DNA of 64,000 nt, from assembly GCF_000426365.1 (NCBI RefSeq), contig NZ_KE384525.1, positions 106,072 to 170,071 of the forward strand. The letters run 5' to 3'. The notes beneath the pieces are model-generated. The model did not search any database. It was not told the DNA's origin and saw only the letters and a program-made list of their open reading frames with translations. This DNA comes from Arenimonas composti TR7-09 = DSM 18010 (GTDB taxonomy: Bacteria; Pseudomonadota; Gammaproteobacteria; Xanthomonadales; Xanthomonadaceae). Position numbers and translations under genes: made by a program. Each line of letters opens with the position of its first letter. The stretch's first letter is position 1. Of the stretch, positions 12,924-56,640 are shown in pieces.

Positions 12924-12947
12924 GATCGCGGCTGAAGCCGCTCCTAC
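12924..12947. repeat. REP element (GTAGGAGCG type)
   Basis: One inverted copy of GTAGGAGCGGCTTCAGCCGC plus GATC, in the 51-base convergent gap between the Mth938-domain gene and nlpD. Confidence 0.9.
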
Positions 12948-19566: not shown

Positions 19567-23997
<4,431 letters not shown>

Positions 23998-32876: not shown

Positions 32877-35217
32877 GTTGCTCGCGCTCGCGATCGCCGC
32901 CGCCCTCGCGGGCAGCGGCAGCGTGCGCGCGGCGACCCCGGCGGGCGCCTATGCCAGCCTGGACCAGCATCCGGCGGCGATGGACGCGCTGCAGGAACAG
33001 CGGCTGTTCCTCGAGGTCTTCCACGGCGAGCGCCCGACCGGGCTGATCGCCGAGTTCCGCCTGCGCGACGGCAGCCTGGCGGCGACGCCGGCCGAGCTGG
33101 CCCAGATCGGTCTCGTGCTGCCGGCGGGGGTGTCCGCCGACGCGCGCGGCCTGGTGCCGCTGGACGCCCTGCCCGGCCTCGCCTGGCATTACGACGCCGC
33201 CGCGCAGCGCCTGCATCTGCGCATCCCAGCCGCGCTGCGCCCGCAGCAGGCCCTGGGCTACACACCGCCGCCGGCGGTGATGCCCGACCGCGCCCGCGGC
33301 TGGACGCTCGGCTACGACAGCTACCTGCACCGGCAGGCCGGCCAGCGCACCGCCGCGGTGTCGACCGCCTTCGCGGTCTTCGGCGACTGGGGCACCTTCG
33401 AACTCGAGGGCGTCACCCACTTCGGCGACGCCGTGGCCGGTGGCGAACGCGGCTTCCGCCGCCTCGGCAGCCGCTGGCGGCACAGCGACCCGCAGCGGCT
33501 GACGACCTGGACGGTCGGCGACCTCGACAGCGGCGGCCTCGGCTGGACCCGGCCGGTGCGCATGGCCGGCCTGCAGTGGCGGCGCAACTTCGCGACCCGC
33601 CCGGACCTGGTGACGACGCCGCTGCCGCAGTTCAGCGCCGACGCCACCCTGCCCTCGTCGGTCGAGCTGTACGTCAACAACGTGCGCCAGTTCGGCAGCG
33701 AGGTGCAGGACGGCCCCTTCGTGCTCGACGCGGTGCCGACGATCGGCGGTGCCGGCGTCGCCCAGCTGGTGGTCACCGACGCCCTCGGCCGCACCACCAC
33801 GACCTCGGTACCGCTGTACGTCGACGCCCGCCGGCTCGCGGTCGGGCTGAGCGATTTCAGCATCGAGGCCGGCGTACTGCGCCGCGGCTGGGGCGCCGAC
33901 GACGGCTACGGCGACATCCCGGCGGCGAGCGCGAGCTGGCGCCGCGGCGTGCGCGACCGGCTGACCGTCGAGGCGCATGCGGAGGCGACCCGTGGCCTGT
34001 GGCTCGGCGGCGCCGGCGCGGTCTGGTCGCCCGGCAACCGCTGGGGCCTCGTCACCGCCGCGCTCGCGCGCTCCGGCGGCGACCACAGCGGCTGGCAACG
34101 CAGCCTCGGCTACCAGTGGCATGCGCCGGCCTGGGGCCTCGACCTGGCGACGACCCGCCGCAGTAGCGGCTTCCGCGATCTCGGCGACGCCAGCGTGGTC
34201 GCCGGCGGCGCCCCGAGCTCGGCGCGTGCCGAGGATCGGGCGTCGGCGTGGACGAGCGGCGCGGCCGGCACCCTCGCCGCCAGCTGGATCCGCTACCGCG
34301 ACCGCCGCGACCAGGTCACGACCGTGCGCAGCCTGTCGTGGTCGCGCCAGTTCGGCACCCGCGCCCACGTCGCCGCCTCGCTGTTCGCCAGCAACGGCGA
34401 CGGCGGCGGCGGCCTGACCCTCAGCCTGCCGCTCGGCCGCGACCGCCACGCGACGATCGGCGTGCAGCGCGCCGGCGACGATTTCGACACGACCGCGACG
34501 TATCGCCGCAGCGCCCCCTACGAGGGCGGCTTCGGCTGGGGCGTGCTCGCCGGCGACCGCCATGGCGGCGAGGGCCGGGCGACGCTCGAGTACCGCGGCG
34601 ACCGCATCGAGGCCAGCGCCGGCGTCGAACGCCTCGCCGGCCGGGACGGCGCGTTCGCGCAGGCGCGCGGCAGCGTGATCGGCCTCGGCGGCGGCGTGTA
34701 TGCGGCACGCGCGCTGACCGACGCGTTCGCGGTGGTCGACGCGGGCGAGGCCGGGGTGCCGGTGCTGTACGAGAACCGCCTGTACGGCCACACCGGCGCC
34801 GACGGTCGCCTGCTGGTCACCGATCTGCGCGGCTGGCAGCGCAACCGGCTGGCGATCGATCCGGATGCGCTGCCGGCCAACTTCCGCGTCGGCGAGATCG
34901 AGCAGACCGCGGTACCGGTCGACCATGCCGGCGTCGTCGTCCGCTTCGAGGTCGAGCGGCGGGCGCCGGCGATCCTGCGCCTGCTCGGACGCGACGGCGC
35001 GCCGGTGCCCGCCGGCACCCGCGTCGCCGCCGGCGGGCGATCGCTGATCGTCGGCTTCGACGGCGAAGCCTTCCTCGAGTCCGCCGCCGCGGATACGGTG
35101 CTCGAGGGCCGGCTCGACGGCGGCCGCTGCCGCTGGACCGTCGCCGCGGTCGAGCTGCGTGCCGACGGCGCGCCGGCCCGGCCGCCGCCGCTCGCCTGCC
35201 ACTGGAGTGCGCCATGA
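32839..35217 (+). CDS. Csu-type outer-membrane usher
   Basis: A 792-residue fimbrial usher: signal peptide (about 1-31, with MARPRRS as basic region), N-terminal chaperone-binding domain (FLEVFHGERPTGLI), a 24-stranded barrel and plug region (VELYVNNVRQF, VPTIGGAGVAQLVVTDALGR), and C-terminal domains ending in the Cys-containing RCRWTVAAVELRAD segment. It is the assembly pore of the pilus. ATG at 32839 lies within the chaperone gene. Its stop overlaps the tip adhesin ATG (ATGA). Confidence 0.92.
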   Translation: MARPRRSTSAGPELLALAIAAALAGSGSVRAATPAGAYASLDQHPAAMDALQEQRLFLEVFHGERPTGLIAEFRLRDGSLAATPAELAQIGLVLPAGVSADARGLVPLDALPGLAWHYDAAAQRLHLRIPAALRPQQALGYTPPPAVMPDRARGWTLGYDSYLHRQAGQRTAAVSTAFAVFGDWGTFELEGVTHFGDAVAGGERGFRRLGSRWRHSDPQRLTTWTVGDLDSGGLGWTRPVRMAGLQWRRNFATRPDLVTTPLPQFSADATLPSSVELYVNNVRQFGSEVQDGPFVLDAVPTIGGAGVAQLVVTDALGRTTTTSVPLYVDARRLAVGLSDFSIEAGVLRRGWGADDGYGDIPAASASWRRGVRDRLTVEAHAEATRGLWLGGAGAVWSPGNRWGLVTAALARSGGDHSGWQRSLGYQWHAPAWGLDLATTRRSSGFRDLGDASVVAGGAPSSARAEDRASAWTSGAAGTLAASWIRYRDRRDQVTTVRSLSWSRQFGTRAHVAASLFASNGDGGGGLTLSLPLGRDRHATIGVQRAGDDFDTTATYRRSAPYEGGFGWGVLAGDRHGGEGRATLEYRGDRIEASAGVERLAGRDGAFAQARGSVIGLGGGVYAARALTDAFAVVDAGEAGVPVLYENRLYGHTGADGRLLVTDLRGWQRNRLAIDPDALPANFRVGEIEQTAVPVDHAGVVVRFEVERRAPAILRLLGRDGAPVPAGTRVAAGGRSLIVGFDGEAFLESAAADTVLEGRLDGGRCRWTVAAVELRADGAPARPPPLACHWSAP

Positions 35218-36164
35218 AGCCCCTGCTGCGTCTTTTCGCCGTGCTCGCCCTGCTGGCCTTCGCGCCGCTGGCGGCGGCGCAATCCTGTTCGATCGATACC
35301 CAGTCGCTGCAGTTCGGCGTGCAGCAGGGGCTGCCGACCGGCCAGATCGACATGACCACGACCATCGTCGTGTCGTGCCCGCGCGGCATCGGCGCGATCA
35401 TCACCGGCTACAACGTCTGCGTGTCGATCGACGCCGGCAGCGGCAGCGGCAGCACGGTCGCCGACCGCCGGATGTCGCTCGCCAGTCCGGCCGGCAGCTT
35501 CCGCTACCAGCTGTACACCGACGGCGCCCATTCGCAGGTGTTCGGCAACACCGCGGCGACCGGCGTCAACGTCACCTTCCCGTGGCTGGACGGCACTCCG
35601 AGCCGGTCGATCGTCGTGCACGGGCGCGTACCGGCGAACCAGAACGGCCAGGCGGTCGGTACCTACACCTCGCAGCTGACGGTGACGATGTACGAACAGG
35701 GCGCCCTGTTCGGCACGCCGGCGAGCTGCGGCAATGCGCCGGCGGCGACGCGCACCTTCCAGGCCAGCCTGCAGCTGCAGCCCTCCTGCACGATCACCGC
35801 ACAGCCGCTGGACTTCGGCGTCTACTCGCCGACGGCCGCGCGCGACGGTGCGACGAACCTGTCGGTGACCTGCACCCGCAACGGCGCGTGGTCGCTCGCC
35901 CTCGACGGCGGCAGCGTCGCCGGCGACGTCAACAACCGGCGCATGCGCCTCGGCGCCGGGCCGGCGACGATCAACTACCAGCTCTACAGCAACGCGGCGC
36001 GTACCAGCGTCTGGGGCGCCGCGGCGATCTGTCCGCCCGGGGTGAGCTGCCTGGGGACTGGCGCCGCGCAGTCGGTGCCGGTCTACGGCCGGGTGCCGGC
36101 GGGCCAGGGGGCGAAGGCGTCGGGGACCTACGTCGACACGGTGACGGCGACGGTGACGTATTGA
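35214..36164 (+). CDS. two-domain spore coat U protein, probable tip adhesin
   Basis: A 316-residue exported protein with a signal peptide (1-21, ending LAAAQ) and two SCPU domains in tandem (about 22-170 and 180-316). Both have the CSI or CTI start and the RRMxL...YQLYT/S...W pattern. Two-domain SCPU proteins, as CsuE, form the adhesive tip of Csu pili. It is the last gene of this minimal four-gene operon (pilin, chaperone, usher, tip); larger Csu loci have extra minor subunits, absent here. Confidence 0.9.
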   Translation: MKPLLRLFAVLALLAFAPLAAAQSCSIDTQSLQFGVQQGLPTGQIDMTTTIVVSCPRGIGAIITGYNVCVSIDAGSGSGSTVADRRMSLASPAGSFRYQLYTDGAHSQVFGNTAATGVNVTFPWLDGTPSRSIVVHGRVPANQNGQAVGTYTSQLTVTMYEQGALFGTPASCGNAPAATRTFQASLQLQPSCTITAQPLDFGVYSPTAARDGATNLSVTCTRNGAWSLALDGGSVAGDVNNRRMRLGAGPATINYQLYSNAARTSVWGAAAICPPGVSCLGTGAAQSVPVYGRVPAGQGAKASGTYVDTVTATVTY

Positions 36165-39688: not shown

Positions 39689-42600
39689 CTACAGCGCCTC
39701 GCCACCGAACTTGTGCGTGTACTGCAGATAGAAAGTGCGGCCCTCGGTGTCGAACCACGAGATGTCGTAGTACGGGTACGAGGTATAGGTCGGGTCGGCC
39801 GGCGGCATCGCGTCGAACAGGTTGACCACCGTCAGCGTCAGCCGCGCGTGGTCGCTGAAGCGGAAGCCGAGCGTCGCGTTGTAGCGGTAGGTCGCCGGGA
39901 TCGTCGGACCCGGGTCGCCGTCCTCCCACACCTCGTCGTAGGACCAGCCGTTCGGCAGGCTGCCGAGACGGCGGCCCTGGATCGACGCGCTCCAGCCCTG
40001 GCGTTCCCACGACAGCCGCAGGCTCGCCTTGCTGCGCGGAATGTCGTAACCGCTGTTGACCGCGAACATGTCGACGATCGCCTCGTCCGGGTACTCCTGG
40101 ATCTGGTGCTCGCGCACCCAGGTATAGCCGGCGGCGACGCGGAACAGGCCGAAGCGGGTGTCCCAGCGCAGATTGGCGGTGACGTCGACGCCCTCGGTGT
40201 TCTCGCGGGCGATGTTGATCGGGTTCACGTGCACGCCGTAGATCGCCCCGGTCGGCGTGCGGGTGATCCGCGCGAGCATCTGCTGGCAGGTGTCGGAGCC
40301 CGGATCGACGCCGTTGACGCCGAGGCGGCAGTCGCGCTCCCAGCGCATCACCTCGTTGGCGCGCAGGTCCTGCACCTGGTCGCGCATGTCGATGCTGAAC
40401 CAGTCCAGCGACAGGTCCACCCACTCCGCCGGCGACCACACGAAACCGGCCGTCCACGAATCGCTGGTCTCCGGCTCGAGGTCGCGGTTGCCGACGCGGC
40501 TCCGGATGATGCCCTCGTCGCCCCAGCTGCAGTCGTCGTAGTCCTCGCCCGGCTCCTGGGTGTCGCAGCGGTAGTAGTCGGTGACCGAGGTCTCGTCGTT
40601 GCCCGGACCGGTGAACACGTAATGCAGGTCCGGCGCGCGGAACGCGGTGCCGTAGGAACCGCGCACGAGCACGCTGTCGACCGGCCGCCACTCGACACCG
40701 GCACTCCAGGTGAAGCGGTTCGGATCGTTGCCGGCGAATCGGTACTGGTCGAAACGCCCGGCGAGGCTCAGGTTCAAGGTCTCCAGCACCGGCATGCGCA
40801 GCTCGCCGGCGAGCGCCCAGCGGTTGCGGCTGCCCTTACCGTCGGAATCCTTCCAGCTGTAGTAGTAGTACTGCGTCGCCAGCGGATCGGGCTTCAGGTC
40901 GTAGGACTGATGACCGAGTTCGGCGGTCGCGGCGAAGCCGGCGGCGCCGCCCTGCAGTTCGAACAGCGCGGCGTTGGTCAGCGTGAACGACAGCGTCTGC
41001 GTCTCGGACTGCGGGTGGTAGGTGGTGCGGGCGAAGATGCTTTCGTACTCGGCGCGGGTCAGCGGCGTGTACATGCGGTCGTAGGGCGCGTCGTAGATCG
41101 GGTAGCCGTCGGCGTCGTAGCCGAGTAACGGGCCCAGGAACAGGTCGTTCGCCGCCGAAGCGACGATCTGCGGCCAGCTGATCTCGGCGCGGTACTGCGA
41201 ATGGCTCAGCGCCGCCTCGAAGTCCCAGGCCTCGCCGAGCGTGCCGGAGAAGCCGGTGGTGATGCCGAAGGTCTTCTGCACCGTCTCGACCATGCCGTTG
41301 CGCAGCCCGCCCATCTCCTCGACGGTGAACTGCCGCTGCCAGTATTCGAGCTGGTCGGTATTGCGGTTGTAGAAGTAATCCCACTCGACGCCGTCGGGGG
41401 TCATCAGCGCCCAGCTGCGCGGCGCCCGGAACAGCTTCACCTCGTGCCGGCCGGCCTGCACGTCGGCGAACCAGCGCAGGCCGTCGCCGAGGTCGTAGCC
41501 CATCGACATGAACAGGTTCACGCCGTCGCGTTCGCTCTTCATCGTGCGGTAGGCGACCGCGCGGTCGCTGCCGCAGTAGTAGCCGTAATTGCGGCGGTAG
41601 GCGTAGTGCATCGAACCTTCGTTGAGCTGCGACAGGCCGTCGCAGGTCGCCTCGCCCGGATCGATGTAGTCGTCCCACCAGTCGGTGATCAGGAAGTTGC
41701 GCGGCGGGTAGCCGTAACGGTCGGGATTCGGCGCGTCGTAGCTGGAATCCTGCTGCTCGCGCTGGTAGCCCCAGAGCGGATCCTGGCGGCGGTATTCCAG
41801 GCCGGCGACGAAGTCGAAGCGGTCGGTGCCGAAACCACCGCTGAGGTTGAGCTGGTGCGATTCGCCGTCGCCCTCGCCGGTGACGCCGTAGCGGTAGTCG
41901 ACCATCGCACCGTCGGCGCGACGCTTCAGGATCACGTTGACGACGCCGGAGATGGCATCCGAGCCGTAGATCGCCGAGGCGCTGCCGGTCAGTACCTCGA
42001 TGCGCTCGATCATGCCCAGCGGCAGGCTGGAAATGTCGGTGAAATTGCTGCGGCCGCCGAAGGGCAGCGGGAAGTCGGCGATGCGGCGGCCGTTGACCAG
42101 CACCAGCGTGTGATTCGGACCGAGCGCGCGCAGGTCGACCTGCTGCGCACCCGGCGAGAAGTCGGCGCCGCCGGCGGACTGCTGGCTCTGCGTCTCGCCG
42201 CCGTTCTGGGTCAGTGCCTGCAGCACGTCGGGCACGCTGGTGAAACCACCGGCCTGGATGTCGGCGGCGGTCATCACGGTGATCGGCGCCGGGCCCTCGA
42301 CCTGCGCGCGCGGAATGCGCGATCCGGTCACCTGCAGCGTTTCCAGCGTCGTCGGTTCCTCCTCCGGCGGCGGCGCCGGCGCGGGGGTCGGCGCGGGGGC
42401 GGCGCGCGGCGGCGCCGGCGCGGCGGCCGGGGCGGCTTCGCGCACGATCACCACGGCGCCACCGTCGCCGCGGCGGGCGCGGAAACCGCTGCCCTGCAGC
42501 AGCGCATCGAGGGCCTGGTCGGGACTCAGGTTGCCGTGCACGCCCGCGGTCTGGACGCCGCGCAGCTGGTCGGCCGGATAGACGACCTGGGTGCCGGACT

Positions 42601-42739
42601 GCCGAGACAGTGCGTCGAGCGCACCGGCGAGGCTGCCGGCCGGAATGTCGAAAGCCTGCGCCGGCAGTTCCTGCGCCTGCACGGACAGCGCGGCGGAACA
42701 GGCCAGGCTCAACAGCAGAAGTCGGAACGGCGAACGCAT
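39689..42739 (-). CDS. TonB-dependent receptor with STN signalling domain
   Basis: A 1016-residue outer-membrane receptor. The signal peptide (about 1-22) is followed by an STN domain (about 30-78; QAFDIPAGSLAGALDALSRQSG), a Pro/Ala linker, a TonB box-like ETLQVTGSR segment, plug domain (QVDLRALGPNHTLVLVNGRR, SAIYGSDAISGVVNVILKR) and a long beta barrel ending in LQYTHKFGGEAL. STN domains signal ligand binding to a FecR-type regulator. It lies downstream of the FecR gene. A GGGGGAG lies before the ATG. The ligand is unknown; context suggests cyanophycin or isoaspartyl peptides. Confidence 0.93.
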   Translation of the reverse strand: MRSPFRLLLLSLACSAALSVQAQELPAQAFDIPAGSLAGALDALSRQSGTQVVYPADQLRGVQTAGVHGNLSPDQALDALLQGSGFRARRGDGGAVVIVREAAPAAAPAPPRAAPAPTPAPAPPPEEEPTTLETLQVTGSRIPRAQVEGPAPITVMTAADIQAGGFTSVPDVLQALTQNGGETQSQQSAGGADFSPGAQQVDLRALGPNHTLVLVNGRRIADFPLPFGGRSNFTDISSLPLGMIERIEVLTGSASAIYGSDAISGVVNVILKRRADGAMVDYRYGVTGEGDGESHQLNLSGGFGTDRFDFVAGLEYRRQDPLWGYQREQQDSSYDAPNPDRYGYPPRNFLITDWWDDYIDPGEATCDGLSQLNEGSMHYAYRRNYGYYCGSDRAVAYRTMKSERDGVNLFMSMGYDLGDGLRWFADVQAGRHEVKLFRAPRSWALMTPDGVEWDYFYNRNTDQLEYWQRQFTVEEMGGLRNGMVETVQKTFGITTGFSGTLGEAWDFEAALSHSQYRAEISWPQIVASAANDLFLGPLLGYDADGYPIYDAPYDRMYTPLTRAEYESIFARTTYHPQSETQTLSFTLTNAALFELQGGAAGFAATAELGHQSYDLKPDPLATQYYYYSWKDSDGKGSRNRWALAGELRMPVLETLNLSLAGRFDQYRFAGNDPNRFTWSAGVEWRPVDSVLVRGSYGTAFRAPDLHYVFTGPGNDETSVTDYYRCDTQEPGEDYDDCSWGDEGIIRSRVGNRDLEPETSDSWTAGFVWSPAEWVDLSLDWFSIDMRDQVQDLRANEVMRWERDCRLGVNGVDPGSDTCQQMLARITRTPTGAIYGVHVNPINIARENTEGVDVTANLRWDTRFGLFRVAAGYTWVREHQIQEYPDEAIVDMFAVNSGYDIPRSKASLRLSWERQGWSASIQGRRLGSLPNGWSYDEVWEDGDPGPTIPATYRYNATLGFRFSDHARLTLTVVNLFDAMPPADPTYTSYPYYDISWFDTEGRTFYLQYTHKFGGEAL

Positions 42740-42806
42740 GATCTCCCCCGGTGGCGCACGCGACGGCGCCTTCAGAAAGCGGGGACGAACGAGACCGGCG
42801 AATCCC

Positions 42807-43814
42807 CTAGCGGCAGTGCGGATCGCCGGCGGTGTACAGGACGATCCGCTCCGGGGCACGGGCGGCGCAGACCGGGAAACCGGCCTCGAGCAGCCCCACG
42901 AAGCTGTCCAGTTGGTCCCAGCGGAAGCTGCCGCCGATGCGTAGCGCGCCGGCGGCGGCGTCGCCGATCTCGAGCCGCCGCGCGTTGTAGCGGTTGAATT
43001 CGTCGGCGGCGGCGGCCAGCGCGCTGTCCTGGAACACCAGGAAGCCGTTGCGCCAGTCGACCAGGCGCGCGACCTCGGCCAGCGGCTGCGAGCGCACCAG
43101 CACGCCGCCGCCGCCGGTGGTGGCGACGCTGCCGGCCGGCAGCAGCAGGCCCTCGCCGGGATCGCTGCCGGCGGCGACCAGGCGCACGGTGCCCTCGGTG
43201 ACGACGATGCGGATGCCGTCGTCCTGCCGGCGCACCGAGAACGCGGTGCCGACCGCGATCACCTCGTGGCTGCCGGCGGCGACGACGAAGGGCCGGTCCG
43301 GCGCCTTCGCGACCTCGAAAAAGCCTTCGCCGCGGGCGAGCGCGATGCGCCGCTCGGCGCGGTCGAGACGCACGCTGATGTGGCTGTCGGTGCCGAGGGT
43401 CGCGCGCGAGCCGTCGGACAGGGCGACGGTTTCGATGCGCCCGAGGCCGCTGCGGAAATCGGCTTCCTCGACCGGCCCGCGCCAGCGGTCGCCGAACACG
43501 CCCACAGCGAGCGCCAGCAGCGCCGCGGCGGCCGCGGCCGCCGGCAGCCGCCAGCGGCGCCGGCGCGGTGCCGGCGCACGCACGCGCAGCGGCGCCGCGG
43601 CGGCCCAGTCGGCGGCCGGCAGTGGCGGTCGCAGCGCCTTCAGCCGCACCGTTTCGTCCCACGCCGCCTGCAGACGCAGGAAGGCGACCCGGTGCGCGGG
43701 CTCGGCACCGAGCCAGGCCTCCAGCGCTGCCTCGTCGGCCGCCTGCCAGCCTTCGCCGTCGCGCCGCGCCAGCCAGTCGGCGGCGGCGCGCTCAGCCCGC
43801 GTGCCCGCGTCCAT
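42807..43814 (-). CDS. FecR family anti-sigma factor/regulator
   Basis: A 335-residue inner-membrane sensor. The cytoplasmic N-terminal domain (about 1-50; AAADWLARRDGEGW and the EAWLGAEPAHRVAFLRLQAAW helix) binds the sigma factor, one transmembrane helix lies at about 88-106, and the periplasmic FecR domain (about 115-215; VALSDGSRATLGTDSHI) and C-terminal STN-like part receive the signal from the receptor. Its start overlaps the sigma gene by 23 bases, and the receptor follows 67 bases later: a complete FecI-FecR-FecA-type cassette. Confidence 0.93.
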   Translation of the reverse strand: MDAGTRAERAAADWLARRDGEGWQAADEAALEAWLGAEPAHRVAFLRLQAAWDETVRLKALRPPLPAADWAAAAPLRVRAPAPRRRRWRLPAAAAAAALLALAVGVFGDRWRGPVEEADFRSGLGRIETVALSDGSRATLGTDSHISVRLDRAERRIALARGEGFFEVAKAPDRPFVVAAGSHEVIAVGTAFSVRRQDDGIRIVVTEGTVRLVAAGSDPGEGLLLPAGSVATTGGGGVLVRSQPLAEVARLVDWRNGFLVFQDSALAAAADEFNRYNARRLEIGDAAAGALRIGGSFRWDQLDSFVGLLEAGFPVCAARAPERIVLYTAGDPHCR

Positions 43815-44373
43815 CGCGTTCCCCGCGGGCCGCCGCCACGGCGCTGCCGACCTCGTCGCCACCGGCGCCGAGGAGGCCTTCCGCCATCAGTCGCATGCCC
43901 TTCGCCAGATGCTTCTCCACCGTCTTCTCGCTGATCCCGAGCCTGGCCGCGACCTGCTTCTGCGACAGATCCTCGACGCGGCGCAGCCACACCACCTCGC
44001 GGCAGCGTGGCGGCAACCGGTCGAGCGCCTCGGACAGCCGGCGCAGGCCCTGGCGGGCGCCGCACCAGTGTTCCGGCGACAGCCCGTCCACCATCAAGAC
44101 GCTCAGCGACTCGAAATCACCCATCGTCTCGATCGACACGACGCGACTGCGGCGGATGCGGTCGGCGATCAGGTTGCGCGCGGTGGCGAACAGGAAGGCC
44201 TTCGGCTGCTCGGGCAGCGCCTTGCCGGCGGCCTCGTAGACGCGCACGTAGATCTCCTGGCGCAGGTCGGCGAGTTCGTCGCGCTGCGGCCAGCAGCGGC
44301 GCAGCACGTGCATCAGCAGCGCCTCGTGGACGAGGATCTCGCGGACGAACCAGGCATCGAGCGCGGCGGGCAT
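43792..44373 (-). CDS. FecI-like ECF RNA polymerase sigma factor
   Basis: A 193-residue extracytoplasmic-function sigma factor. Region 2 (about 15-80) has DLRQEIYVRVYEAA and AFLFATARNLIADRIRR; region 4 (about 115-165) has LPPRCREVVWLRRVEDLSQKQVAARLGISEKTVEKHL. It should direct transcription of the receptor gene and perhaps the divergent fusion gene once FecR is triggered. The ATG at 44373 is preferred; a second in-frame ATG at 44442 would add 23 residues and overlap the divergent gene leader. Confidence 0.93.
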   Translation of the reverse strand: MPAALDAWFVREILVHEALLMHVLRRCWPQRDELADLRQEIYVRVYEAAGKALPEQPKAFLFATARNLIADRIRRSRVVSIETMGDFESLSVLMVDGLSPEHWCGARQGLRRLSEALDRLPPRCREVVWLRRVEDLSQKQVAARLGISEKTVEKHLAKGMRLMAEGLLGAGGDEVGSAVAAARGERDGRGHAG

Positions 44374-44464
44374 CGGCGCAGCGTAGCCGAGGCGGGCGCG
44401 CCGCGGGTGGGGGAAGATGGTCGTACGTTCGTCCAGTTCCATGAACACACCGAAGGAGTGCGGC
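44374..44464. promoter_or_regulatory. 91-base divergent promoter region, sigma gene / cyanophycinase fusion
   Basis: The start codons of the sigma factor gene (leftward) and the fusion gene (rightward) are only 91 bases apart, so both promoters and any operator must be in or just beyond this space. AAGGAG at 44452-44457 is the ribosome-binding site of the fusion gene. I see no clear Fur box. Confidence 0.6.
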
Positions 44465-46399
44465 ATGACGTTTCCCTGGCTGCGGGCCCTGGCCCTGAGC
44501 TTCGCCCTGCTCGCCCCGGCGGCGTCGGCCGCGGACCTCGTCCGCCACACCATCGGCGACCTCGACGCGGCGACGCCCGGCGAGGTGCGGCCGGGCCTGC
44601 TGCTGATGGGCGGTGGCGACCGCAACCAGGATGCGCTGCGCTGGTTCTTCGAACGCGCCGGCCACGGCCACCTCGTCGTGCTGCGCGCATCCCAGGGCGG
44701 CGAGATCGGGGTCGAGTTCCACGACGAGGTCGGCGGCGTCGCCTCGGTCGAGACCTTCGTGTTCGGCAGCCGCGATGCCGCCACCGATCCGGCGGTGCTG
44801 CGCGCGCTGGGTCGCGCCGACGGCATCTTCATCGCCGGCGGCGACCAGTCGAACTACGTGCGCTACTGGAAGGACACCCCGGTCGCCGCGGCGCTCGACG
44901 CGCATGTGCGCGCCGGCAAGCCGCTCGGCGGCACCAGCGCCGGGCTGGCGATGCTCGGCGAGTTCCTCTACGGGGCGATGGACGGCGGTAGCCAGACCAG
45001 CCCGCCGGCGCTGGCGGATCCGCTCGGCGCCGCCAACACGATCGAGCGCGATTTCCTGCACATCGACCTGCTGAAGGGCGTGCTCACCGACACCCACTTC
45101 CGTGAGCGCAACCGCCTCGGCCGGCTGATCGCCTTCGTCGCCAAGGCGGAAACGCTGGCCGGTCCGGGGCGCACGCTGATCGGCCTCGGCGTCGACGAGG
45201 ACGCCGCGGTCGGCGTCGAGGGCGACGGCCGCGCGCGGGTGTTCGCGGCCGCACCGGGCGCCGGCGCCTGGGTCGTGCACGGCGGCTTCCCGCGCGGGCA
45301 GCGCGAGGACGAGCCTATGCAGCTCGGACGCGTCGAGGTGGTCGGCGCCGGTGTCGGCTCGACCCTGCGCCTGCCGTCCGGCGAGGTCGAAGCCCCGCAG
45401 TTCCGCCGCGAGTACGCGGTGCGCGACGGCGTGCTGGTCGCGCTGCACCAGCCGCTGCTGGTGATCCACGGCGGTGCCGGCGTCGAACGCGCCGGCCTGT
45501 CGGCGGAAGAGGAAGCGGCCGCGCGGGCGGCGCTGGCGGACGCCCTGCGCGCCGGCCATCGCGCGCTGATGGACGGCAAGCCGGCGCTCGACGCCGTCAC
45601 CGCCGCGATCACCGTGCTCGAGGACGCGCCGCAGTTCAACGCCGGCCGCGGCGCGGTGTTCACCCACGACGGCCGCAACGAACTCGATGCTTCGCTGATG
45701 GACGGCCGCAGCGGCCGCGCCGGCGCCGTCGCCGGGGTCGGCCGCGTGCGCAATCCGATCCTCGCCGCGCGGGCGGTGATGGAGCGCTCGCCGCACGTGA
45801 TGATGGTCGGCGCCGGCGCCGAGACCTTCGCCGGCGAACAGGGTCTCGAACTCGTCGACCCGGCGTACTTCCGCACCGACAAGCGCTGGCAGCAGCTGCA
45901 GCGCGCGCTCGAGGAAGAGGCGCGCGCGGCGGAGGCGCAGGCAGTCCTGGAGCTGCCGGCCACCGCCTGGTTCGGCACCGTCGGCGCGCTGGCGCTGGAC
46001 GCCGACGGCCACCTCGCCGCCGGCACCTCCACCGGCGGCATGACCAACAAGCGCTACGGCCGTGTCGGCGACTCGCCGGTGATCGGCGCCGGTACCTGGG
46101 CCGACGCGCGTTGCGCGGTTTCCGGCACCGGCTGGGGCGAGTACTACATCCGCGCCGCCGCCGCCCACGACATCTGCGCCCGCGTGCGCTACCGCGGCGA
46201 CCGCCTGCAGCGCGCCGCCGACGACGTGATCAACGCGGCGATTCCGGCGGCCGGTGGCGACGGCGGCGCGATCGCGCTCGGCGCCGACGGCAGCGTCGCC
46301 TTCCCGTTCAATACCGAGGGCATGTACCGCGGCTGGATCGGCGCGGACGGGGTGCCGCATGTGGCGGTGTTTCGCGGCGAGGAACTCGCGGAGCCTTGA
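44465..46399 (+). CDS. exported cyanophycinase-isoaspartyl peptidase fusion
   Basis: A 644-residue bifunctional protein with a signal peptide (1-22, ending SAA). Residues about 28-300 are a peptidase family S51 cyanophycinase: GGGDRNQD, FIAGGDQSNY, nucleophile Ser158 in GGTSAG, His211 in DTHFRERNRLGRL and the GLGVDEDA loop. This family cuts cyanophycin to beta-Asp-Arg. Residues about 330-640 are a type 2 (Ntn) isoaspartyl peptidase/asparaginase: VIHGGAG, PQFNAGRGAVF, autocleavage site Gly504-Thr505 in WFGTVGALALD, GTSTGGMTNKR and GAGTWAD. That domain would split beta-Asp-Arg to Asp and Arg. ATG at 44465 with AAGGAG seven bases before. Divergent from the FecI-FecR-TonB receptor genes. Confidence 0.92.
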   Translation: MTFPWLRALALSFALLAPAASAADLVRHTIGDLDAATPGEVRPGLLLMGGGDRNQDALRWFFERAGHGHLVVLRASQGGEIGVEFHDEVGGVASVETFVFGSRDAATDPAVLRALGRADGIFIAGGDQSNYVRYWKDTPVAAALDAHVRAGKPLGGTSAGLAMLGEFLYGAMDGGSQTSPPALADPLGAANTIERDFLHIDLLKGVLTDTHFRERNRLGRLIAFVAKAETLAGPGRTLIGLGVDEDAAVGVEGDGRARVFAAAPGAGAWVVHGGFPRGQREDEPMQLGRVEVVGAGVGSTLRLPSGEVEAPQFRREYAVRDGVLVALHQPLLVIHGGAGVERAGLSAEEEAAARAALADALRAGHRALMDGKPALDAVTAAITVLEDAPQFNAGRGAVFTHDGRNELDASLMDGRSGRAGAVAGVGRVRNPILAARAVMERSPHVMMVGAGAETFAGEQGLELVDPAYFRTDKRWQQLQRALEEEARAAEAQAVLELPATAWFGTVGALALDADGHLAAGTSTGGMTNKRYGRVGDSPVIGAGTWADARCAVSGTGWGEYYIRAAAAHDICARVRYRGDRLQRAADDVINAAIPAAGGDGGAIALGADGSVAFPFNTEGMYRGWIGADGVPHVAVFRGEELAEP

Positions 46400-46427: not shown

Positions 46428-46805
46428 TCAGATCCAGACGTCGTTCGGCGCGGTCATCGCGCCGCCGGCGTCGCCGGTGTTCACCACGCCGCGCGGCTCG
46501 ACCAGCATGATCGCGCACTCGCCGTGCGCGACCGGCCGGTGCTCGACACCCTTCGGCACCACGTACATCTGCCCGGCCTTCAGCGGCACCGCGTGGTCGC
46601 GGAACTCCAGCACCAGTTCGCCGTCGAGGATGATGAACACCTCGTCGGTATCCTCATGCGCATGCCAGACGAACTCGCCCTGCACCTTCGCGAGCTTGAA
46701 CTGGTAGTCGTTCATCTCGGCGACGACGCGCGGCGACCAGTGCTCGTGGATGCGCAGCAGCTTTTCCTTCAGGTCGATCGCAGCGGCAGTCGTGATCTCG
46801 TGCAC
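46428..46805 (-). CDS. cupin domain protein
   Basis: A 125-residue single-domain cupin. Motif 1 ([20 protein letters not shown], about 47-66) and motif 2 ([16 protein letters not shown], about 78-93) carry the usual two His, Glu and His metal ligands. The start is GTG at 46805 with GAGGA upstream. Small cupins of this type act as isomerases, dioxygenases or sugar-binding proteins; no substrate can be assigned. It is convergent with the fusion gene, 28 bases away. Confidence 0.88.
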
Positions 46806-46971
46806 GGTGAGTCCTCGGGGTCGGCGTCAGCCGCGACAGCTTCGGGGCCGCCGGCGGGGCGGCACCACTACCCTTCGTCACCCTCGGCGCCGAATTGGCC
46901 GGCACGACCCGCGTCGTCGACGCCAGATATTTCCCGGGCAGGTGCCGGGCGCACCGGGCACGGCAGCCGAA

Positions 46972-47835
46972 CTACGCTTTCCGCGTCACCGCCAGCCCCG
47001 CCCCCGCGAGCAGCAGGCCGACCGCCACCGCCTGCGTCCAGTGCGGCGCGCCGCGGCCGAAGGCCAGCAGCCAGCCGGTCGACAGCACCGGCGCCGCGTA
47101 GCCGAGGGCGCCGAGCACGGCGATGTCGCCGCGCTTGGTGCCGACGTCCCACAGTCCGAAGGCGATGCCGGTCGGGCCGAGGCCGATCGCGATGATCGCC
47201 AGCCACTGCCCGGCCGTCGGGGCCACCCAGGTTTCGAACAGCGCATGCGCGAGCCCGCCGATCACGGCGACCGCCAGGCAACTGCCGGCCATCGCCGTCA
47301 CCGGCACCGCCGCGAAACGGCCGTTGAGCACCGAGTACAGCGACCAGACCAGGGCGGCGCCGATCGCCGCGGCATAGCCGAGCGCGTGCCGCTCCTCCAG
47401 CGCGAAGGCCTGGCCGCGGCTGACCAGCAGCACCGCGGCGGCGAGCCCGAGCGCGGTGCCCAGCCACTGCCCCGCCCGCACCCGCTGGCCGCCGATCAGC
47501 GCGGCGAACACCACGATCAACAGCGGCCAGAGGTAGTTCAGCAGGTTGGCCTCGACCGCCGGGGCATGCTTCAGCGCCGTGAAGTAGAGCGCGTGGTAGC
47601 CCGCCAGCGCGGCGATCGTCAGGGTCGCCGCCGCCGCAGGCTGGCGCAGTGCCCCGGCCCCCGGCCCGCCCGGGCGCAGCAGCCAGCCGACGCCGGCGAT
47701 ACCGGCGATCCCGAAACCGAGGGCGAGCAGTTGGAACGGCGGGATGCCGGCCGTTGCGGTGGTCAGCACCGCCAGCGTCGACCACAACAGCACGGCGGCG
47801 AAGCCCGCCAGGGTCGCCCGGGAACCGGGGATCAT
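46972..47835 (-). CDS. EamA family (DMT) exporter, YddG-like
   Basis: A 287-residue inner-membrane drug/metabolite transporter with about ten hydrophobic helices in two EamA repeats. The early LLWSTLAVLTTATAGIPPFQLLALGF and the NYLWPLLIVVFAALIGGQRV segments resemble the aromatic amino acid and paraquat exporter YddG. It lies 10 bases after the hemJ-like gene, on the same strand. The substrate is not certain. Confidence 0.88.
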   Translation of the reverse strand: MIPGSRATLAGFAAVLLWSTLAVLTTATAGIPPFQLLALGFGIAGIAGVGWLLRPGGPGAGALRQPAAAATLTIAALAGYHALYFTALKHAPAVEANLLNYLWPLLIVVFAALIGGQRVRAGQWLGTALGLAAAVLLVSRGQAFALEERHALGYAAAIGAALVWSLYSVLNGRFAAVPVTAMAGSCLAVAVIGGLAHALFETWVAPTAGQWLAIIAIGLGPTGIAFGLWDVGTKRGDIAVLGALGYAAPVLSTGWLLAFGRGAPHWTQAVAVGLLLAGAGLAVTRKA

Positions 47836-47845
47836 CGCGATGCGG

Positions 47846-48295
47846 TCAGAACGGCTTGGCGAGGACCAGCCAGACCAGCGGGATCAGCAGCAGCAGCGGG
47901 ATCTCGTTGAACCAGCGCAGCGTCGTCGGCGACGGCAACGCGCCGCCGGCGGCCGCGCGCTTCAACCAGCGCCCGGTGACGATGAAATAGACCAGCAGCA
48001 GGACGACCAGGCCCAGCTTGGCGTGGATCCACTTCATGTCGCCGACCAGGTTCGGCAGCCACGCCGGCAGCAGCCGCCAGCCCAGCCACAGCGCCGCCCC
48101 GAGCAGTACCGCGACACCGAACATGTGGTGGCCGAAGCGGTACAGCCGCCGCCCCATCAGTGCCAGCCGCGCCTGCACCTCCGGCTGCCCGGTGCTCTCC
48201 GCGAGGTTCACGAGGATCCGCGGCAGGTAGAACACCGTCGCCATCCAGGCGATCACGAAGACCAGGTGGAACGTCTTTACCCAGAGATAGGCCAT
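47846..48295 (-). CDS. hemJ: HemJ-like protoporphyrinogen IX oxidase / CopD family protein
   Basis: A 149-residue membrane protein with four hydrophobic helices. KTFHLVFVIAWMATVFYLPRI at the N-terminus, GRRLYRFGHHMFG in the middle and MKWIHAKLGLVVLLLVYF in helix 3 are the HemJ/UPF0093 signature, with the conserved His10 and the Lys-His of the third segment. HemJ oxidises protoporphyrinogen IX to protoporphyrin IX in haem synthesis. It precedes the EamA gene by 10 bases and is divergent from a DEAD-box helicase gene. Confidence 0.88.
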   Translation of the reverse strand: MAYLWVKTFHLVFVIAWMATVFYLPRILVNLAESTGQPEVQARLALMGRRLYRFGHHMFGVAVLLGAALWLGWRLLPAWLPNLVGDMKWIHAKLGLVVLLLVYFIVTGRWLKRAAAGGALPSPTTLRWFNEIPLLLLIPLVWLVLAKPF

Positions 48296-48322: not shown

Positions 48323-48346
48323 GTAGGAGCGGCTTCAGCCGCGATC
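48323..48346. repeat. REP element upstream of hemJ
   Basis: A perfect GTAGGAGCGGCTTCAGCCGC element plus GATC, 27 bases upstream of the hemJ start, in the divergent gap with the deaD-like gene. Confidence 0.92.
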
Positions 48347-52660: not shown

Positions 52661-52684
52661 GTAGGAGCGGCTTCAGCCGCGATA
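52661..52684. repeat. REP element after the flavoprotein gene
   Basis: A perfect GTAGGAGCGGCTTCAGCCGC element plus GATA, 15 bases after the flavoprotein stop and directly before a GAGTAACGAG-type repeat. Confidence 0.92.
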
Positions 52685-52838: not shown

Positions 52839-54646
52839 ATCGGCTCGTCGAGCAACAGCTGCCGCGCATACCGCACCGGCGGTGCGCCGTAGGACAGCAT
52901 GCGGTCGTGGAAGTCCTTCAGGTCGAAGGCGGCGCCCCACTTCGCCTCGGCGGCGCGGCGGGCGTCGAAGTGTTCCTGGGCACCGACGAAGTAGGTCGCG
53001 AGCTGGGTCGACGACAGCTGCGCCCGCACCCACTTGCCCTCGGCTTCGCTGGCCTGCTGGAAGGTCTGGCGGACCATCAGGTCCATCGCCTGTTCCTTCG
53101 TCCAGCCCTCGACGTGCACGCCCTGGTCCAGGATCGCGTTGGCGACGGCGCGCGCGTAGAACTTCAGCTGCATCAGGCGGAACAGCGGGTCGTTGTCGAG
53201 GTAGCCGGCGTCGGCGACCATGCGCTCGGTGTAGACCGCCCAGCCCTCGGCGAACGGGCCGGAACGCAGCACCGCGCGCAGCACCGACGGATGGTTCGCC
53301 GAATGCGCGCCCTCGAGGTAATGCCCCGGCATCGCCTCGTGGATCGTCAGCACGTGGATCAGGAACTTGTTGTACTCGCGCAGGAAGGAGTCGACCTGTT
53401 CCTGCGTCCATTCCTCCGGGATCGGCGAGATCGCGTAGTAGGTGTCGAGCCCCTTGTCGAGCGGGCCCGGCGAATCGCAGTAGGCGACCGAGAACCCGCG
53501 CTGGAACTCCGGCATCAGGATGATCTGCACCGGCGCGTCCGGCACCGTCACCAGGTCCTTCTCGCGCACGAAGGCGGTGGCGACCTCCAGCGTGTGCCGG
53601 GCGAAATCGACGACCTCGTCGCGCGCCGGCCGCTCGGCGTAGGCCAGTTCCAGCGCCGCTTCGATCGCCGCCTGCTGCTGGTCGGCATCCGGCGTGTCCG
53701 GCGTCGGCGGCGCGCCCTCGCGGCCGGCGAGCACGCTGCGCGCGACCAGGTACATCTCGTCGCGCACGCGCGCGAGTTCGGCGGTCGCCCGGTCGCGGAT
53801 CTCCTGCCGCGACAGCGACGAGTTCAGCGCGAAGCGCAGCTGCTGGTCGTACTTCTCGGCACCGATGCGGAAATCGCCCTTCGCGTTCGGCACCAGGGTG
53901 GCGTCGATCCAGGCCTGGTGCTCGTCCAGCGCCGTGCGCAGCGCAGCCATCGCCGCGTCGAGGCGCGCGCGTTCCTCGCCCTGCAGCTGGTCCGCCGCCG
54001 GGATGATGAACTGCTCGAGCAGACCGGCGACGCCGGCGTTCTGCCGCGAATAGGTCTGCGCATGCGTCGGCGGCACCCGTGCCGGCTCGAGGTTGGCGCG
54101 CGCCTGCGCCAGCAGCGCCGGAATCGCCTCCATGCGCGCGGTCGCCGAACGCAGGCGATCCGGCATGGGCGCGAATTCGCGCGCCATCAGCGAGTAGATC
54201 GCGCCGCCGGCCAGGCCGCTGTAGACCTGCGGGTCCCAGGCCCAGCGCTGCATCACTTCCTCGTCCCAGATGCCGTATTCGAGCTGGTTGCGCAGGATCG
54301 CGGCGTCGACCTGGTTCTCGCGCGACAGCGTCGCGACGTCGATCGCGTCGAGGTCGGCGAGCAGCGAGCGCGCGGTCGCCAGGCTCTTCGCGCGGCCCTC
54401 GGCACTCATGTCGTCGACGAGATGATCGTGCCGGTGCTCGCCGATGCCGGTCGCCGAGACCGGGCTCATCGCCAGCAGGTCGTCGAGCGCGCGCTGCGAC
54501 AGCGCCGCGAAGGCCGCATCGGCGGCCGACTGTGCGGGCGCGGCGGCGGCCGCGTCGGCCGCCGGGGCGGCGGCGCCGGTGGATGCAGGGTCGCCGCAGG
54601 CGGCGAGCGCGAGGACGAGGGCGAGGACGAGCGGCGTGCGACGCAT
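52832..54646 (-). CDS. DUF885 family metallopeptidase, lipoprotein
   Basis: A 604-residue exported protein with a lipobox (LALAAC, Cys17) after a short signal peptide. The DUF885 domain covers the rest. TIHEAMPGHYLEG carries a HExxPGH zinc motif and EGWAVYTERM provides a downstream Glu. The family contains carboxypeptidase-like and aminopeptidase-like enzymes; the substrate is not known. The final residues DEPIE are followed by a TAA that belongs to a GAGTAACGAG repeat. It is divergent from the acyl-CoA dehydrogenase gene (118 bases). Confidence 0.9.
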   Translation of the reverse strand: MRRTPLVLALVLALAACGDPASTGAAAPAADAAAAAPAQSAADAAFAALSQRALDDLLAMSPVSATGIGEHRHDHLVDDMSAEGRAKSLATARSLLADLDAIDVATLSRENQVDAAILRNQLEYGIWDEEVMQRWAWDPQVYSGLAGGAIYSLMAREFAPMPDRLRSATARMEAIPALLAQARANLEPARVPPTHAQTYSRQNAGVAGLLEQFIIPAADQLQGEERARLDAAMAALRTALDEHQAWIDATLVPNAKGDFRIGAEKYDQQLRFALNSSLSRQEIRDRATAELARVRDEMYLVARSVLAGREGAPPTPDTPDADQQQAAIEAALELAYAERPARDEVVDFARHTLEVATAFVREKDLVTVPDAPVQIILMPEFQRGFSVAYCDSPGPLDKGLDTYYAISPIPEEWTQEQVDSFLREYNKFLIHVLTIHEAMPGHYLEGAHSANHPSVLRAVLRSGPFAEGWAVYTERMVADAGYLDNDPLFRLMQLKFYARAVANAILDQGVHVEGWTKEQAMDLMVRQTFQQASEAEGKWVRAQLSSTQLATYFVGAQEHFDARRAAEAKWGAAFDLKDFHDRMLSYGAPPVRYARQLLLDEPIE

Positions 54647-56561: not shown

Positions 56562-56640
56562 GTAGGAGCGGCTTCAGCCGCGATGCTCTTCCTGCGGGTC
56601 GGTGGGAGGAAGAGAGCATCGCGGCTGAAGCCGCTCCTAC
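56562..56640. repeat. inverted pair of REP elements (BIME-like)
   Basis: Two perfect REP copies in opposite orientation (56562-56585 and 56617-56640), with complementary GATGCTCT/AGAGCATC continuing inward and about 20 bases of loop. The structure fills the convergent gap between the acyl-CoA dehydrogenase and DUF1415 genes. The right copy supplies the TAG stop of the DUF1415 gene. Confidence 0.92.

Follow-up and report, generated by a model that had tools for sequence, protein, structure and literature searches.

We analysed a 64,000-nucleotide stretch of the genome of Arenimonas composti TR7-09 = DSM 18010 (contig NZ_KE384525.1, positions 106,072 to 170,071 of the forward strand; hereafter the window), in which a single gene joins a cyanophycinase-type S51 domain to an isoaspartyl peptidase domain and lies divergently from the genes for a FecI-like sigma factor, a FecR-like regulator and a TonB-dependent receptor. 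The fusion protein has two complete domains with their key residues and a signal for export, its gene has the receptor gene as a partner, the signalling (STN) domain of the receptor co-occurs with FecI and FecR, and one promoter motif, of the extracytoplasmic function (ECF) type, is shared by the enzyme and receptor genes. The locus is probably a surface-signalled regulon for the use of cyanophycin, a polymer in which nitrogen is stored, from outside the cell. Its features are the following, with the basis for each in brackets.

39689..42739 (-): TonB-dependent receptor of 1016 amino acids, with signal peptide, STN, plug and barrel (Pfam)
42440..42589 (-): STN signalling domain of the receptor (Pfam)
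42784..42807 (-): ECF-type promoter motif upstream of the receptor, at a distance of 44 bases from the ATG and touching the last base of the fecR stop
42807..43814 (-): FecR-like sigma regulator, with DUF4880 and FecR domains (Pfam)
43792..44373 (-): FecI-like ECF sigma factor of 193 amino acids (Pfam Sigma70_r2 and Sigma70_r4_2)
44380..44385 (-): TAnnnT (TACGCT), a possible housekeeping -10 element of fecI
44410..44433 (+): ECF-type promoter motif upstream of the fusion gene, at a distance of 31 bases from the ATG
44465..46399 (+): fusion gene, 644 amino acids, with signal peptide, CphE-type S51 cyanophycinase and IaaA-type isoaspartyl peptidase (open reading frame and Pfam)
44465..44530 (+): predicted Sec signal peptide, cleaved after residue 22 (ASA/AD; read from the sequence)
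44576..45439 (+): S51 domain including its C-terminal beta segment, residues 38-325 (residues and fold model)
45452..46378 (+): isoaspartyl aminopeptidase / type III asparaginase domain, residues 330-638 (Pfam and Foldseek)
45977..45979 (+): codon of Thr505, the predicted autocleavage site and nucleophile after Gly504 (solved relatives)

In the mechanism that we propose, the receptor would bind cyanophycin or fragments of it and move them into the periplasm, and binding would be signalled through the STN domain to FecR, which would free or activate the FecI-like sigma factor. The sigma factor would then transcribe two units from matching promoters, the receptor gene and, across the divergent gap, the gene of the fusion enzyme. 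After export, the S51 domain (Ser158-His211-Glu245) would cut the aspartate backbone and release beta-Asp-Arg, and the second domain, having cleaved itself at Gly504-Thr505, would split beta-Asp-Arg into Asp and Arg. In this scheme we infer the substrate, the compartment (the periplasm or outside the cell), the uptake, the inducer and the recognition of the promoters by the sigma factor. We are evenly balanced on a narrower reading that takes four claims together, namely that the receptor imports cyanophycin, that the inducer is the polymer or its fragments, that the ECF sigma factor is a private one with only the two divergent targets genome-wide, and that one protein is a complete depolymerase.

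The fusion protein had been described in an earlier reading of the window's letters (hereafter the original prediction) as one signal-peptide protein with S51 and isoaspartyl peptidase domains, and the open reading frame and Pfam agree with that description. Its N-terminus, MTFPWLRALALSFALLAPAASA/AD, is a predicted export signal in which no lipobox was seen on inspection by eye, and signal-like N-termini occur in 65 of 67 relatives under a crude hydropathy rule. Pfam Peptidase_S51 matches residues 110-254 with 37.8 bits (cut-off 23.9). Ser158 (in GXSXG) and His211 stand at the positions originally given, and the third catalytic residue is Glu245 of the GVDEDA motif; the pocket is made up of Gln128, Asp209, Arg215, Arg217 and Arg220, with Thr210 in addition. 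In the residue comparison of the study on CphEal of Pseudomonas alcaligenes, the CphE triad is Ser171/His224/Glu251 and the pocket is formed by Gln136, Asp222, Arg228, Arg230 and Arg233, where triad and five pocket residues are common to CphB and CphE while Thr223 of CphE replaces Gln173 of CphB (PMC3235067). Triad, pocket and Thr210 are invariant in all 40 aligned fused proteins, a set drawn from 60 fused sequences (59 loci and the window). Among 29 exported relatives, split and non-gammaproteobacterial proteins included, the eight positions shared by CphB and CphE are likewise invariant, and position 210 is T in 19 and S in 10. The CphB encoded elsewhere in the same genome, which by eye has no signal peptide, carries Q at the matching position. 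Judged by these residues, the S51 domain has the signature of the extracellular cyanophycinases. It resembles CphE of Pseudomonas (CphEal and CphEpa), as far as published residues allow the comparison, in being a predicted exported S51 protein with a Ser/His/Glu triad, the five pocket residues and, where CphB has Gln173, a Thr, and it differs in that CphEal is described as a stand-alone protein of about 420 codons, whereas the window protein adds an IaaA domain in the same chain (PMC3235067).

The second domain is matched by Pfam Asparaginase_2 at residues 330-634 with 367 bits, against a gathering score of 27, and its best Foldseek match is 2zak (TM score 0.93 by target length), with 50-51% identity to E. 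coli EcAIII across the aligned fold. In solved relatives the beta chain starts at the position of Thr505, in agreement with the Gly504-Thr505 cleavage site named in the original prediction. With IaaA / EcAIII (2zak; 8dqm) the domain shares the fold, a Thr after Gly at the cleavage site and conserved active-site residues; it differs in being exported, as predicted from the signal peptide, and fused behind a cyanophycinase. Thr505, Asn392, Thr523, Arg533, Asp536 and Thr555 are invariant in the same 40 fused proteins, and the last five are those that we take to be active-site residues. On the NCBIfam beta-aspartyl-peptidase equivalog NF007589 the domain scores 324 (cut-off 567), which makes it a relative of that E. 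coli-type equivalog and not the equivalog itself. Its matches and residues nonetheless describe what appears to be a complete IaaA. The full-length model (predicted local distance difference test, pLDDT, 86.0; predicted template modelling score, pTM, 0.84) is of low confidence at residues 20-22, 497-501 and 527-541. Since the S51 domain reaches to about residue 325 and the second domain begins at 330, there is almost no linker between them, and junctions are longer in some other fused proteins, for example at loci L110 and L120. Autocleavage in the Asparaginase_2 family is intramolecular, and the unfused IaaA genes of this lineage also have signal peptides by eye. Maturation outside the cytoplasm, which the original prediction had found puzzling, is therefore not peculiar to the fusion. 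Besides the fusion, the genome has no further IaaA match at E <= 0.001.

The chief rival to cyanophycin as the substrate is a different beta-aspartyl material, for example some other polymer joined by isopeptide bonds or isoaspartyl peptides derived from aged proteins, and we regard it as a rather unlikely explanation. IaaA is promiscuous, according to the part of PMC10206079 that deals with it, and the S51 family includes aspartyl dipeptidases of the peptidase E type, which rank behind the cyanophycinases when the S51 domain model (pLDDT 93.5) is used in a fold search. The ranking itself argues the other way: the nine best chains belong to 7uqw, 3en0 and 7uqv, with E from 6.8e-17 to 6.9e-15, and are followed by 6nqc, the first of the other peptidases, at 7.1e-11 and by peptidase E (dipeptidase E) chains from 7.9e-8. 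7uqw is a cyanophycinase with a bound cyanophycin dimer, 3en0 is a cyanophycinase and 7uqv is titled 'pseudo-CphB'; the same three entries, all named cyanophycinase, are the top phmmer matches of the domain. Together with the retention of the five CphB/CphE pocket residues and the CphE-type Thr, this ranking rules out a generic S51 peptidase E as the first choice. The distribution of the cyanophycin synthetase gene cphA1 points in both directions. At E <= 1e-200 it was found in 32 of 149 genomes of the family, and 17 of the 31 genomes with a fused gene have no such match, as would be expected if the substrate were something else. It is nevertheless commoner in fused genomes (14 of 31) than in the others (18 of 118; Fisher p = 0.0009, uncorrected for kinship), which favours cyanophycin. 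The 17 species would seem to make no cyanophycin, in keeping with scavenging, and the other fused species would, on the genes they carry, both store and scavenge it.

A. composti itself has a separate intracellular set on another contig, with iadA (TIGR01975), cphB (TIGR02069) and cphA1 (TIGR02068) all above their cut-offs, which was out of sight of the original prediction. As some of these species also store cyanophycin internally, an exported system could retrieve the reserves that kin or neighbours release on lysis. The iadA-cphB-cphA1 cluster (locus L118, 6804-13518) is followed by a Mur-ligase protein whose match to cyanophycin synthetase is confined to the C-terminal half and scores far under the cut-off of the family.

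The link between cyanophycinase and receptor is near-absolute in the 149 family genomes. Strong S51 hits (E <= 2e-80; 5e-47 for the next best) are present in 47 of them, 31 with a full-length fused match and 16 with split genes. Receptor hits, for which up to five candidates per genome were scored, separate into a group of at least 836 bits in 48 genomes and a next group of at most 634 bits. All 47 genomes with a strong S51 hit have a strong receptor, and in 45 the two are divergent neighbours, so the co-occurrence that the original prediction proposed to look for was indeed found. Beyond the family, the receptor is divergent from the fused genes in a Sphingomonas (L057) and at L110-L113, from a different class of the phylum, and at L114, in a further gammaproteobacterial family, it divergently adjoins a lone CphE-like gene. 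The receptor of the window most likely starts at ATG 42739 rather than at the upstream GTG of its reading frame. Weaker S51 hits, of 34-39% identity, were seen in five family genomes. The surroundings of the lone gene at L114 (1465-17001) include a major facilitator superfamily transporter, alanine dehydrogenase, a carbon-nitrogen hydrolase and a second TonB receptor, with an Lrp-like regulator by eye; a wider amino-acid polymer locus is possible there.

Could the receptor be an ordinary one of the siderophore type that merely neighbours the enzyme, with the FecI promoter driving the receptor only? FecI, FecR and STN are best known from iron uptake, E. coli FecI serves one promoter as far as the relevant passages of PMC9249621 go, and NCBIfam matches the receptor partially, and below cut-off in every case, to receptors for iron, heme and B12. 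We consider this improbable: besides the 47-of-47 co-occurrence and the 45 neighbouring pairs, the linkage persists in lineages that have no FecI/FecR, and the promoter motif precedes the fusion too. Uptake of cyanophycin by such a receptor is an earlier suggestion in print. In Citromicrobium sp. JLT1363 a TonB receptor near a cyanophycinase was already noted in 2012, in one genome and in passages that speak of no fusion, sigma factor or promoter (PMC3400609). The window locus can also be read as a cyanophycin utilization locus, with cyanophycinase, isoaspartyl peptidase and a predicted transporter gene clustered. It shares with the loci of Ben Hania et al., as summarised in PMC10206079, the combination of cyanophycinase, isoaspartyl dipeptidase and transporter for scavenging of the polymer; in contrast to these, the window encodes both steps in a single exported protein and has, as predicted transporter, a TonB-dependent receptor with FecI/FecR signalling.

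The divergence of 91 bases given in the original prediction was confirmed on remeasurement between the start codon of fecI (44373) and that of the fusion, as were by Pfam the FecI-like sigma factor, FecR and the STN-TonB receptor. The fecR gene probably starts at ATG 43814, and FecR has one strongly hydrophobic segment (residues 91-109 of the frame read). With 35.8 against a cut-off of 260 for the NCBIfam ferric citrate FecI (NF041727), the sigma factor is FecI-like and not the ferric citrate sigma. An STN receptor, a FecR with one predicted membrane segment and a FecI-like sigma factor together have the composition of a surface-signalling system. Among 64 fetched loci with S51 and receptor, 57 have FecI, FecR and a receptor alignment that covers STN, and seven have none of the three, these seven including L040, a remnant, and L055, cut by the contig end. 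Pfam STN is absent from all eight receptors examined that lack FecI/FecR (L017, L052, L053, L057, L069, L110, L117 and L120), as well as from the L114 receptor, and is present in both that have FecI/FecR (L119 and L121) and in the window. The same division is visible in the gaps between neighbours in the family: 38 pairs are separated by 1,726-2,190 bases, which leaves room for fecI-fecR, and seven by 262-454 bases, and the receptor hits of these seven short-gap pairs start at query residue 116-130, past STN. FecI/FecR is an optional module tied to STN.

The closest known arrangement is FecIRA ferric citrate signalling, which, as laid out in the parts of PMC9249621 that concern it, shares with the window the STN receptor, FecR and FecI, a sigma promoter before the receptor (in the window a candidate one), and fecIR not under that promoter. 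The differences are that the predicted nutrient of the window system is a poly-amino acid and that its motif also precedes a divergent catabolic enzyme. A pairing with a hydrolase is known from AtxE isopeptidase clusters, in which, in the account of them in PMC9266682, an isopeptidase is likewise accompanied by a TonB-dependent receptor and a sigma/anti-sigma pair. By analogy, the fusion could be the hydrolase of a lasso-type or other isopeptide-bonded signal peptide. The isopeptidases of those clusters are of the prolyl-oligopeptidase type, however (PMC9266682); at this locus the fusion has an S51 domain and an Asparaginase_2 domain, the latter an N-terminal nucleophile (Ntn) hydrolase, instead of a prolyl-oligopeptidase-type isopeptidase, and, judged by enzyme type, we hold this explanation to be very improbable.

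The promoter motif came from reading aligned upstream sequences. It consists of GGGGGA, then A/T-rich bases, a spacer and CGTTCGTC, and is the same upstream of the fusion and of the receptor. The core GGG-N12-16-TTCGTC precedes the fusion/S51 gene in 57 of 61 loci and the receptor in 52 of 58 (one of the 52, at L063, is probably a chance match inside fecR), and occurs in the fecI direction in none of the 61. A matrix built from the 52 receptor sites alone was then scored on the other side of the gap, where it reached at least 10 upstream of the fusion/S51 gene in 55 of 61 loci, with a median of 15.0; the highest median among 200 column-shuffled matrices was -1.4. Ranked over the whole locus, the fusion/S51 site had at most one higher-scoring site in 45 of 61 loci and at most two in 58. 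When the window and its nine-odd near kin were kept out of training (43 sites), the top two sites of the window were still these two, at 26.4 and 19.3, the next scoring 10.9. The exact pattern has three matches in the 3.16 Mb of the genome, the two promoters and one inside a ligA-like frame, and with two mismatches the window has five matches against 3.5 expected. At 12 loci without FecI/FecR (L040 and L055 being left out of scoring) the best motif score was 1.6.

The proposal in the original prediction that the sigma factor may control both transcripts has gained support from this shared ECF-type motif and its absence where FecI/FecR are missing, and we infer from the co-occurrence that the FecI-like sigma factor recognizes it. 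TAnnnT lies within 22 bases of the fecI start in 60 of 61 loci, compared with 6% in shuffled sequence, a placement in line with the statement in PMC9249621 that fecIR is not autoregulated in E. coli. Several candidates were set aside. A FecI-type pattern known from the literature, GGAA-N16-20-TC, matched 45 of 62 sequences on the fusion side but just 10 of 58 on the receptor side; matrix hits at 53864 and 53075 in the window lie inside a DUF885 reading frame; and the third exact genomic match was rejected as a promoter for its position inside the ligA-like frame. That frame (L122, contig C1 near 260843) has repeated peptides that resemble a related repeat read in frame. Taken as a whole, the earlier interpretation is supported, each link that sequence can probe having held.

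Several observations weigh against a cyanophycin regulon of this kind or narrow what can be claimed for it. The fusion scores 91.5 on the TIGR02069 cyanophycinase equivalog, below the cut-off of 126.6, and is therefore classed as CphE-like by its residues and not as a TIGR02069 member; the lone CphE-like protein that adjoins a receptor in another family is also below (85.9), and the CphB of the same genome scores 259.7. The pocket residues are necessary and not sufficient for cyanophycinase identity, and as 7uqv ('pseudo-CphB') shares the visible motifs, motifs alone are no proof of substrate. IaaA and IadA are both described as promiscuous (in the relevant passages of PMC10206079), so that beta-Asp-Arg need not be the sole substrate of the second domain. 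Strong S51 hits occur in just 6 of 369 genomes of the class, that of G553 being a lone CphE-like gene, and within the genus the fusion is patchy (two of six genomes). The linkage has exceptions: the S51 gene and receptor are on different contigs in G026 and G016; in G114 (85% complete) S51 is missing but a receptor, truncated where its contig ends, is present; G006, G058 and G085 each carry an additional strong receptor at another site; and at L040 the fusion persists beside a receptor reduced to a 41-residue remnant. Six receptors have no TTCGTC, and L016, L065 and L067 have no good promoter site before the fusion/S51 gene. The matrix test was blind only in part: inspection by eye had already shown the motif on both sides, and TTCGTC served to choose the receptor sites. 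If one mismatch is allowed, the genome has 14 matches and a reversed control eight, so that only exact copies are informative.

The two-domain order that the original prediction wished to see in relatives is conserved. A scan confirmed 171 relatives, and among the best 80 loci of these, which were kept for locus counts, 59 have both domains in one frame (including L060, a fragment at a contig end), nine have two adjacent reading frames (L052, L053, L064-L069 and L081) and 12 have the second domain only. The 59 fused loci rule out a sequencing error that joined two genes, a doubt that the original prediction had itself raised. By eye, the second gene has its own signal peptide in the nine split loci, and so do the four genes inspected from the 12 loci with the second domain only. 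Beyond the family the fusion is uncommon, with three full-length matches in 398 genomes of the phylum. L057, from a Sphingomonas, and L055, which is closely related to it, also encode fused proteins, as do 4 of 60 genomes from a single family in a different class. Changes between the fused and split states number three on the S51 tree (77 rows) and five on the IaaA tree (86 rows), at least two of them being forced by supported branches, and junction sequences differ between fused proteins. Multiple changes and unlike junctions rule out a single origin and indicate that fusion or fission took place more than once. Left out of the trees were L001 (the window), the L060 fragment, L061 and the second-domain row of L082, which has a stop in the matched stretch; L002 was used in the S51 tree only, as outgroup.

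The loci with the IaaA domain alone (L070-L080 and L082) are mostly from Xanthomonas. For 10 of the 12, about 8 kb on either side show no S51 or receptor match; the other two, L079 and L080, break off a short way upstream. These loci suggest that the second step may serve some purpose in which cyanophycin plays no part. At L061 (Pseudoxanthomonas sp. NC8) the receptor, FecR and FecI matches are in pieces and the fusion frame is intact, from either decay or assembly errors.

The literature already contains the separate enzymes, scavenging clusters and one case of a receptor near a cyanophycinase. Cyanophycin degradation is presented as the work of two enzymes in turn in the passages on it in PMC10206079, whose main text does not use the words 'fusion' or 'fused', and the gene-cluster survey there reports many genomes in which one enzyme was not recognised. 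Fused proteins whose divergent S51 domains score under the TIGR02069 cut-off could be overlooked in such surveys. A literature search, with subscription papers mostly outside its scope, found neither an S51-IaaA fusion nor FecI control of cyanophycin genes. A single exported protein that covers both steps would be useful for obtaining arginine or dipeptides from cyanophycin, the locus offers a candidate receptor for a poly-amino acid, and the conserved ECF promoter would extend control of the FecI type beyond iron carriers to a nitrogen polymer.

The genes downstream of the fusion (46428-48295: cupin, EamA and UPF0093/CopD) have no match in the 80 fetched loci and are therefore not counted as parts of the system. 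Elsewhere in the window, a 21-base repeat, AGGAGCGGCTTCAGCCGCGAT, has six copies against 0.06 expected, at 12925-12945 (-), 21808-21828, 48325-48345, 52663-52683 and 56564-56584 (+), and 56618-56638 (-), and looks like a repetitive extragenic palindromic (REP)-type element. A long frame at 34248-36164 ends in two Spore Coat Protein U (SCPU) domains; its product is likely a secreted pilus-type protein, and the upstream part of the frame may be a wrong-frame extension.

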